Below are positions 14,600 to 17,113 of a DNA stretch of 64,000 bases, one piece after another. A program made the translations under genes and the position numbers. Location: positions 1,736,001 through 1,800,000 of the forward strand of contig NZ_SJJZ01000001.1 of assembly GCF_004331345.1 (NCBI RefSeq), given 5' to 3'. The DNA comes from Kribbella soli (lineage in GTDB: Bacteria > Actinomycetota > Actinomycetes > Propionibacteriales > Kribbellaceae). Numbering within the stretch: the first letter of the stretch is position 1; every line of letters begins with the position of its first letter. A model generated the notes under the pieces. It ran no database searches and was not told the DNA's origin. It saw only the letters and a program-made list of their open reading frames with translations.

Positions 14600-14635
14600 T
14601 TGAGCGAGACCGATTTGTGATCTAGAATAGAACGC
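14600..14635 (+). promoter_or_regulatory. Sigma-70-type promoter for a leaderless DUF222/HNH transcript
   Basis: TTGAGC (14600-14605) and TAGAAT (14623-14628) are separated by exactly 17 bp and resemble the -35 and -10 elements of the housekeeping sigma factor. Transcription would begin about 7 nt after the -10, at or next to the ATG at 14636, and no ribosome site exists. This predicts a leaderless mRNA. Confidence 0.55.
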
Positions 14636-16323
14636 ATGTTCGAAGGCGACCTGGATGAGCTCGGCACCGCGGACCTGTTGGCCGCGGCGTCGGAGTACGG
14701 CCGGATCCAGGACCGGGCCGCGGTGCGGGTTCTGGAGGCGGCGCTGGTGTTTGCCGACCGGCACGCGGTGGTGTGGGGCGAGCCGCGGCCGGGCTACGAA
14801 CAGATCCATGTGTATGGCGGTGACGGTTGTCCGGGGGTGGCGGAGTTCGCGCCGGTCGAGTTCGGCGCGGTGATGCGCATGTCGAGCGGTGCGGCCGCGG
14901 CGTTGATCGGGGAAGCGTTGGCGTTGCGGCATCGGCTGCCGAGGATCTGGGCCGCGGTGCTGGCCGGCGACGCTGTCGCGTGGCGGGCGCGCAAGATCGC
15001 GCACGCCTGCCTGGCGTTATCACTGGAGGCGGCCGCGATCGTCGACCGGCACGTCGTCGGGATCGTCGACACCGTCACGCCGGGTGCGCTGCAAAGGATC
15101 GTGAAGGCGGCGGTGTGGGAGGCCGACCCGGAAGCGGCGAAAGCCCAAGCGGAAGCGGCCGCCCGGACCCGGGGTGTGTTCGTGGCTCCGTCGGATGACC
15201 ATGGCACGAAGCGGATCTGGGTCCGCGCCGCGGCCGGTGACGTGATCCGCTTCGACGCCACGATCGACGACCTGGCCCGCGCGTTGAAGACCCTGGCGAC
15301 ACCGACGACCTGGACCAGCGGCGCGCGAAGGCGATCGGCTGGATCTCCGACCCCGCAGCAGCCCACCAACTCCTCGAAGTCGCCCGCCACCTCGCCCGCA
15401 CCCAGCCGGCCCACCCCCAGCCGGCAGACCCCACGCCAGCAGACGCCCAGCCCACCGACTCCCAGCCGACCCACGCCCGACGGACGCACGTCACCCCTGA
15501 CGATGGGGCTGAGGACCGCGCAGAGGGCCGGGGTCACGGCGGCGACAACGGTGCGTACGACAGCGCGTCCGACGGTTGGGACGACGCTATGAATGACGGT
15601 CGGGATGACCGAGCGGACGACGGCGGGGATGACGGCGGGCACGACGGGGATGCGTTCACGCGGCTGGCCATGGCGGGCACGTTGCCGGGTCGGCTCGCGG
15701 CGATCAAGCGGGCGGCGTACAGCGACGGGCTCGGCGCGGGGAGCGGGCGGCGGAACCGGCACACCCTGTACGTGCACCTCACCGACCGGACGCTTGCCAG
15801 CGGCAACGGCGTGCTGCGGGTCGAGGAACTCGGGCCGCTGCTCGCAGGCCAGTTGACCGAGTTGCTCGGTCATGACCAGATCGTCGTGAAGCCCGTGATC
15901 GATCTTCAGGACCAGGTCAGTGTGCACAGTTACGAGATCCCGGACCGGATCCGCGAACGGGTGAGACTCCAGCACCCGACCGACATGTTCCCGTACAGCG
16001 GCGCCGAAGCCACCAGCCGGATGGATCAAGACCACATCACGCCGTACGACCGCACCGGTCCACCAGGACAAACGACCGCCGACAATCTCATACCGCTAGG
16101 CAGACTCCACCACCGCGCCAAGACCTTCGGCGGCTGGCGCAGCCGACGCCTGCCCACCGGCGCCGTCGACTGGACCAGCCCCCACGGATTCCGGTTCGTC
16201 GTCGACTACACCGGCACCCACCCGATGCCAACCACCTCCCACACGAGAGAACTCGAAGCGGTCGAGCGGCAGGCGGGACTGTCAGTGGGGGCTGAAAGGA
16301 TGTGGCCATGGAACAGGTATTGA
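14636..16323 (+). pseudogene. DUF222-HNH endonuclease-like gene broken by a 1-bp frameshift
   Basis: Two overlapping frames give one DUF222-HNH protein. The first (14636 to about 15294) holds the helical DUF222 domain; it stays open as low-complexity Thr/Pro sequence to 15592. The true continuation is in another frame from GGC at 15295 (GDTDDLDQRRAKAIGWISDP), the classic DUF222 core, and ends with the HNH motif DQDHITPYD, then ADNLIPLGRLHHRAK. The break lies in CTGGCGAC at about 15294-15298, consistent with loss of one G. Restored length is about 562 residues. It could be a real pseudogene, a phase-variable site or a sequencing error. Family members are abundant in actinomycetes and their role is unsettled. 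Confidence 0.85.
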
Positions 16324-17000
16324 GTCGGCCGGAAGCGTCGGCGGCGATCCAGGACACTGGGTGGCGCTTCTTGCTGGGCACCTTGCGAACGTCGGTCCCG
16401 GTCGGGTCGTTGGCTCAGGCAATCGGCTTCGCAGCGGACGCTGTCGCGGTGTGCGGCGACGACGCCGACGCGCACCTTCGGGTCGATGCCCGCCCCGATC
16501 GGGTCGTGTTCACTCTGCAGTCGTTGGAGCACGCAGCGGTTACCACCCTGGATGTCGAGCTCGCGCTTCGGATCTCTGCTACCGCGGACAGGTCCGGATT
16601 ACTGGCGGAGCCCGAAATCGGAACGGGGGCGCCGCGATCCGTCCAGATTCTGGAGATCGCGATTGATGCACTGGACATTGCCGGGATTCGGCCGTTCTGG
16701 AGGGCGGTGCTGGGTTACACCGGTGAGGCAGGTGCCGAGGGACCCGAGGATCCGCTCATCGACCCGTTCGGGCAGGACCCGGCCATCTGGTTCCAGCAGA
16801 TGGACCAGCCGCGCCCGCAGCGCAATCGCATCCACTTCGACATCTGTGTTCCGCACGACGAAGCACCACGGCGCATCGAGGCCGCACTGGCAGCTGGGGG
16901 CCGACTTGTGTCCGCGACGCGTGCCCCCGCTTTCTGGGTGCTTGCCGACCTGGAGGGGAACGAAGTCTGCGTGACCACCTGGCAGGGCCGCGACGGCTGA
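16308..17000 (+). CDS. Pterin dehydratase-like domain fused to a VOC (glyoxalase-like) domain
   Basis: A 230-residue fusion. Residues 1-95 match the pterin-4a-carbinolamine dehydratase layout (WRFLLGTLRTSVPVGSLAQA, FAADAVAV, then LDVELALRIS) but the catalytic His-His-Pro segment is replaced by GDDADAHLR, so dehydratase activity is doubtful. Residues about 110-228 form a VOC domain (IDALDIAGIRPFWRAVLGY, RIHFDICVPHDEA, FWVLADLEGNEVCVTTW). The ATG at 16308 has AAAGGA 7 nt upstream and is preferred to a GTG at 16302. It overlaps the end of the broken HNH gene by 16 nt. Such fusions are annotated as VOC proteins; the substrate is unknown. Confidence 0.75.
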   Translation: MEQVLSRPEASAAIQDTGWRFLLGTLRTSVPVGSLAQAIGFAADAVAVCGDDADAHLRVDARPDRVVFTLQSLEHAAVTTLDVELALRISATADRSGLLAEPEIGTGAPRSVQILEIAIDALDIAGIRPFWRAVLGYTGEAGAEGPEDPLIDPFGQDPAIWFQQMDQPRPQRNRIHFDICVPHDEAPRRIEAALAAGGRLVSATRAPAFWVLADLEGNEVCVTTWQGRDG

Positions 17001-17113
17001 CCCTTCTTCCAACCTGCCGGTCTGGAACTGCAGGGAGTGCGACGTCAAAGGACCAGCTTCATACGCGGCGCAGACGTTCCTGCGCCACTGCCAGGCGTAG
17101 CATCCTCGGCTCC

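Follow-up and report, generated by a model that had tools for sequence, protein, structure and literature searches.

A one-base frameshift in one of three closely related DUF222-type gene copies of Kribbella soli, and grouping of such copies by genome rather than by locus

Results

Two open reading frames share one DUF222-type gene

The window, by which we mean the whole 64,000-nucleotide stretch of DNA that was analysed, comes from the Kribbella soli genome (8.785 Mb in 10 contigs, called G000 below; G008 to G032 are the compared Kribbella genomes). The locus under study carries two overlapping open reading frames and, to their right, a VOC-type gene. Its features are as follows.

14636-15592, plus strand: ORF1, 318 aa; N-terminal DUF222-type part (residues 1 to about 220), then about 98 out-of-frame residues; PF02720 at 40.3 bits over residues 75-217
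15241-15592, plus strand: stretch in which both frames are open (open-frame scan)
15294-15301, plus strand: frame switch site, CTGGCGAC, one base short compared with unbroken copies (aligned against two G000 paralogues and five copies of three relatives)
15298-15402, plus strand: second piece of the conserved N-terminal domain, in the ORF2 frame, upstream of the first ORF2 start codon
15403-15645, plus strand: hypervariable Pro/Asp-rich linker between the two conserved parts (alignment of copies)
15589-16323, plus strand: ORF2, 244 aa, in a frame different from that of ORF1; end of the linker and conserved C-terminal part
15970-16140, plus strand: HNH-like segment with DH ... N ... HH kept and zinc-site Cys absent (limits set by eye)
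16264-16323, plus strand: last 19 ORF2 codons and stop, with homology to the DNA that precedes VOC-type genes elsewhere and none to the DUF222 family
16308-17000, plus strand: VOC/glyoxalase-like gene (named by eye), whose start overlaps the ORF2 end; found at other loci in relatives

The stop of ORF1 and the ATG of ORF2 overlap as ATGA at 15589-15592. Alignment of homologues places the DUF222-family sequence in the ORF1 frame up to about 15294, and in the ORF2 frame from 15298 on. ORF1 codons 1-220 followed by the ORF2 frame from 15298 correspond to single-frame proteins (564 and 632 aa) encoded at two other loci of G000. In named records, all relatives of the window gene (13 loci) belong to Kribbella.

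At the switch site the window reads CTGGCGAC and the G000 paralogues L016 and L018 read CTGGGCGAC, a difference of a single base. Five copies belonging to three relatives have the longer form, as CTGGGTGAC, CTCGGTGAC, CTCGGCGAC or CTTGGCGAC: L051, L052 and L053 in a single Kribbella, L026 in G029 and L025 in G032. The missing base falls in a short GGG run within the N-terminal domain. The unbroken G000 paralogues share 89-92% DNA identity with the window gene over the aligned pieces, and the positional counterparts in G025 (C6, 576 aa), G029 (C1, 625 aa) and G032 (C1, 522 aa) are also in one frame. Identity of the flanks, left and right of the locus, is 95% and 90% for G025, 93% and 90% for G029, and 90% and 83-85% for G032. 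In G017 and G013 the outer flanks are present, with no DUF222-type gene between them. The preliminary description had proposed a frameshift at this place, to be checked in related strains. This is confirmed, as the family sequence does change frame in CTGGCGAC and the same place is unbroken in three relatives; a lesion of one base in a gene of the DUF222-HNH kind is supported by the unbroken paralogues and positional counterparts, and by an old-frame divergence that is of the coding type before as well as after the break.

The same description had stressed some 300 bp open in both frames around the break. The ORF1 frame is open from 14621 to 15592 and the ORF2 frame from 15241 to 16323, an overlap of 352 bp, of which 292 bp lie past the break, so the stretch itself exists. 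It is not a special feature of the broken copy: in seven distinct unbroken homologues (only those carrying the searched motif, duplicates of a locus being counted once), the corresponding wrong frame runs 46, 82, 469, 487, 556, 628 and 796 bp to its first stop, that is more than 292 bp in five of seven cases, which makes a long double-open stretch common for this GC-rich gene.

A DUF222-type N-terminus and an HNH-like C-terminus

The N-terminal part (P0001) matches PF02720 (DUF222) with 40.3 bits over profile positions 42-187, above the curated cut-off of 24.4. The unbroken paralogue L016 scores 32.9 bits; L018, L064 and L065 gave no PF02720 match in the protein search, yet the locus of L018 reached 32.2 bits in the genome search. 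Such patchy matches indicate that PF02720 covers this subfamily only marginally. On the C-terminal side, where PF01844 (HNH) has a cut-off of 21.4 bits, no HNH model was obtained at E<=10 for P0002, L016, L018, L064 or L065, in a search whose HMMER filters drop most matches above about 0.1. Comparison of the subfamily alignment with the HNH end of the paralogue L014, itself at 25.3 bits with PF01844, gave an hhalign probability of 96.1 (E 3.3e-9) over 86 C-terminal columns. The C-terminal part thus shares by homology a DH ... N ... HH core with a protein that Pfam recognises as HNH, the zinc-site cysteines being missing as judged by eye. The earlier label “HNH” holds by this profile comparison, for a variant without zinc cysteines, and not by any Pfam HNH match. 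In the HNH family such ends are nucleases, which makes the present one a putative nuclease.

An AlphaFold2 model of the G025 positional counterpart L052, built on 10 alignment rows, was poor (mean pLDDT 40), residues 161-250 being the only better part (blocks at 66-83); the break, after residue 220, falls between two of its predicted helices. A PDB sequence search returned nothing meaningful (best E 0.042), two homologues tested with PADLOC had no defence-system match, and NCBIfam gave a single meaningless match, below cut-off.

One added base would restore a protein of 562 residues, as had been noted and as coordinate arithmetic bears out, only that its residues from about 16264 on are not family sequence. 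From there ORF2 consists of DNA which precedes VOC-type genes at other loci in relatives: the VOC-type gene with about 43 bp of its upstream DNA (16264-17017) abuts the end of the DUF222 gene, and supplies the last 19 codons and stop. This tail was considered as a second lesion and rejected. The part following the conserved GTH differs between all distinct copies printed, so that a locus-specific tail is normal in the family. In G029 (L072), some 120 bp separate the VOC-type gene from another DUF222-type gene, and the two are convergent. In G025 (L064, 4340-7466), about 3.1 kb including a short-chain dehydrogenase-like ORF (by eye) separate the DUF222 gene from the right flank, a place taken in G000 by the VOC-type gene. 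Judged from this difference between G025 and G000, the place to the right of the DUF222 gene is a variable site.

The old frame is conserved past the break

Over the 192 old-frame codons of 15646-16221, the window gene is separated from its nearest paralogue by 20 synonymous and 4 non-synonymous differences (dN/dS 0.066), and the ratio before the break is 0.076. Values are higher with the other G000 paralogue (0.208 and 0.137). Changes private to the window relative to both paralogues fall on codon positions 1/2/3 as 2/3/15 before the break, 6/2/6 in 15298-16200, and 3/1/6 in 15646-16221. The 6/2/6 distribution could hint at a slight relaxation, the counts being small and the linker included. 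Since the old frame past the break still bears the mark of purifying selection, the change is either very recent or an assembly slip; in other words, the copies would have diverged long before the deletion arose, or the organism does not have it. The locus thus combines a disabling lesion with unbroken homologues and little relaxed selection, as expected of a recent pseudogene.

Frameshifts in the surrounding region and in other family members

For a frameshift scan, 180 kb of G025 and 100 kb of G029 were compared with a 194-kb stretch of G000 around the window. For G025, 126 of 132 called genes were mapped on G000 (141,780 bases) and 8 were flagged as lying in two frames; for G029, 84 of 86 were mapped (84,459 bases) and 6 flagged. 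In the reverse direction, flags were raised for 8 of 132 G000 genes on G025, and for 4 of 82 on G029. After sorting of the flags, several of them by eye, the coding sequence compared with G025, about 142 kb, contained no other credible mid-gene frameshift in G000. Zero further breaks in 142 kb is still compatible with about 2 per 100 kb.

The flags set aside were of several kinds. With G025 genes on G000, those at 1683126, 1709833 and 1724409 looked like start-site artefacts whose upstream ORF was unlike protein (by eye), and the flag at 1810469/1809845 had between its two pieces about 600 bp that overlap a gene present in G029. Two further flags, raised in this direction and again with G000 on G025, concerned the same tandem paralogues. 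The flag at 1720630 (G000 on G025) was a start-site artefact, by eye, and two others of that comparison lay within the first 28-38 residues. Apart from the window gene, all G029-on-G000 flags fell within the first 29-58 residues. Of the four G000-on-G029 flags, three were N-terminal, within the first 24, 29 and 140 residues, and the fourth was the antisense ORF of the window gene.

Three genes that are single-frame in G000 are split in G025, where their counterparts lie on C6: C2:1760710-1761921, 1776072-1778104 and 1801037-1802074. For the genes at 1760710 and 1801037, G029 matches G000 over the full length and the split is seen in G025 only. For 1776072-1778104, flagged in both directions, the G000 frame is conserved at the C-terminus (57 of 57 residues), which makes G025 the shifted one; the N-terminal flag in this gene precedes a signal-peptide-like start. 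The three splits are either frameshifts or assembly slips in G025. As this comparable draft has three of its own, an assembly slip in G000 stays plausible: G000 is not full of frameshifts, yet may contain a single error.

Splits were also surveyed in the family itself. G000 has 15 DUF222 loci (a manual grouping of 20 profile matches), two of which are split, the window gene and C4:712136-713099. This second copy, a DUF222-HNH gene of a different subfamily, changes frame at a different place (L077, around 2029-2040; C4, about 712,530). In 12 Kribbella genomes (G000 and 11 single-contig genomes, of which G009 had no match), all 54 N-terminal matches at E<=1e-15 could be paired with a C-terminal part; 50 pairs were in a single frame and four were split, namely the window gene, G032 C1:1270401 (L125), G018 C1:4637531 (L126) and G018 C1:260054 (L049). 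The G018 pair breaks near residues 188 and 198 of the query, and the G032 copy in or near the linker, so that none of the three shares the break place of the window gene. A homologue with the same break and an expressed two-part protein had been named beforehand as a refutation; the other split copies of this set all break elsewhere. An additional split copy was found in G008 (C6, L123). Nine candidates had been chosen for their short open frames: three proved split (L123, L125, L126) and six were at a contig end. Some of the other split copies may be assembly errors too. In all, eight family stretches of draft genomes (L100, L101, L119, L120, L121, L122, L124 and L127) end or begin at a contig end, a pattern that near-identical copies would produce by breaking assemblies; the six candidates picked for short open frames are among them.

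Copies group by genome at matching loci

Matching by flanks pairs three DUF222-type loci of G000 with three of G025: the window with C6, C4 with C1, and C3 with C3. In G029, one locus matches G000 C4 and another the window locus. In the tree of the N-terminal part (655 bp, 24 rows, without the two G022 rows L100 and L101, which were too short), the copies nevertheless grouped by genome, with support of 99/99 for the three copies of G000, 100/97 for the three of G025 and 100/100 for the two of G029. The C-terminal tree (575 bp, 26 rows) kept the G025 and G029 groups and placed the C3 copy of G000 outside its own group. Forcing positional counterparts together was rejected in 10 AU tests out of 10 (p from 6e-48 to 0.002); these groupings were chosen with the tree already known, but on the criterion of flanking synteny and not from the tree. 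The sequences concerned are window 14636-16261 with L064, L065, L075, L076, L113 and L099, which group by genome and not by locus.

Identities show the same pattern. In the N-terminal part, copies within a genome are 95.4-96.9% (G000), 91.0-94.5% (G025) and 99.7% (G029) identical, versus 84.0-86.7% for positional counterparts. The contrast is weaker in the C-terminal part, at 90.8-96.0%, 88.3-92.3% and 99.7% within genomes and 84.1-89.0% between positional counterparts. Over the long segments, dS between positional counterparts of G000 and G025 is 0.43-0.48, with 0.27 for a piece of 35 codons. For the same two genomes, 122 genes of the region have a median of 0.146 (5-95% range 0.07-0.297), roughly a third of the long-segment values. 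Genes flanking the three loci reach a dS of up to 0.30. For the window gene and G029, dS is 0.61 in the N-terminal part and 0.28 in the C-terminal part, the latter being within the 5-95% range for G029 (0.065-0.292). Among the G000 paralogues, dS is 0.09-0.15 in the N-terminal part and 0.14-0.27 in the C-terminal part.

Copies are thus closer to those of their own genome than to their positional counterparts, which suggests that copies within a genome overwrite each other, and the version spread in each genome appears for the most part to diverge between genomes more than neighbouring genes do. We infer gene conversion as the cause, as in a REP13E12-like family of dispersed copies that exchange sequence. 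Separate insertions at identical places in each lineage could also have given a similar tree.

Discussion

What the broken copy may be

We hold it somewhat probable that one base was deleted very recently from the window gene, turning this member of a set of three closely related DUF222-type copies into a new pseudogene, the copies at two other loci being unbroken. The deletion would have hit the short G run inside the N-terminal domain. Translation from 14636 would then yield a 318-residue product of about 220 family residues and a scrambled tail, and the HNH-like C-terminal part would be made only if ribosomes restarted at the ATGA overlap. Even after such a restart, the end of the N-terminal domain (15298-15402) would be in neither product. 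The scrambled tail of ORF1 and this missing piece are what makes a new pseudogene the most likely status of the copy. As copies appear to overwrite one another, the lesion might be repaired from the other copies by gene conversion, or be copied to them. Loss of function, a mutation rather than an assembly slip, conversion behind the grouping by genome, and later repair are all surmised here from DNA sequence.

The base may instead have been dropped from the consensus, the chromosomal copy being unbroken, and we regard such an assembly or sequencing error as a real though lesser possibility. It would explain why the old frame is kept with no second lesion, at a short G run where assemblies can slip; the three genes split in G025 show that a comparable draft contains frameshifts, and polishing can go wrong among near-identical paralogues (identity is 99.7% for the two G029 copies, and eight stretches stop or begin at contig ends). 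The absence of another credible mid-gene frameshift in about 142 kb of G000 compared with G025 argues the other way, as does the recurrence of split family copies in other genomes, even if these possibly are errors too. The ATGA overlap could permit two coupled polypeptides, and ORF1 and ORF2 might then be a functional split gene encoding two nuclease halves. The entire conserved C-terminal part does lie within ORF2, and gene pairs exist in REP13E12 regions of M. tuberculosis (Rv0094c/Rv0095c and others, as listed in PMC13061034). We nevertheless find this improbable: 105 bp of conserved domain are outside both products, the G025 counterpart has no ATG at the position of the overlap, none of the three other split copies among the 54 pairs breaks at this place, and selection on the old frame points to one protein until very recently. 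More improbable still is a programmed -1 ribosomal frameshift joining both frames. The direction of the shift and the 352 bp open in both frames would suit it, but no zero-frame slippery heptamer (X XXY YYZ) was found in 15151-15592, and the unbroken relatives need no shift.

Relation to REP13E12 and to other DUF222/HNH proteins

The REP13E12 repeats of M. tuberculosis, grouped with HNH endonuclease/DUF222 repeats in PMC10589994, are described in PMC13061034 as having no defined biological function according to its authors, who count 87 gene conversion events in REP13E12 regions. The Kribbella copies, likened to them by description, are similarly dispersed, multi-copy DUF222/HNH genes with apparent conversion between copies. 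They differ by their genus, by the zinc-less HNH-like end of the Kribbella subfamily, and by the level at which homogenisation is deduced, here across species at matching loci and for REP13E12 within one clonal species. Compared with proteins that match both PF02720 and PF01844, such as the G000 paralogue in L001, the window gene has an N-terminus above the PF02720 cut-off and a C-terminus that aligns with the HNH end of L014, but it lacks a PF01844 match and, by eye, the zinc-site cysteines, and it is broken. Conversion among such repeats is already known in M. tuberculosis; Kribbella adds a case from another genus, in which one copy carries a lesion. Among the papers listed by our literature searches, none was seen to report conversion of DUF222/HNH-type genes in Kribbella.

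A more speculative reading, to which we give little credence at present, is that these genes are homing-type elements. The nuclease would provoke copy-to-copy repair, a genome-specific version would sweep through all loci at a pace exceeding the divergence of surrounding genes, and broken copies like the one studied here would survive as dead alleles that can still be converted. It is prompted by the dS of 0.43-0.48 between positional counterparts, as against the regional median of 0.146 and the values of 0.09-0.27 between paralogues of the same genome.

The break by itself carries little weight, being a fresh and possibly artefactual lesion in one redundant gene copy, and serves mainly as a caution that frameshifts in GC-rich genes can escape ORF scans. 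Of greater use is the apparent concerted evolution seen around it. The positional counterparts in Kribbella may offer a test system, outside the tuberculosis bacterium, for conversion of DUF222/HNH repeats and for the role of the nuclease in it.
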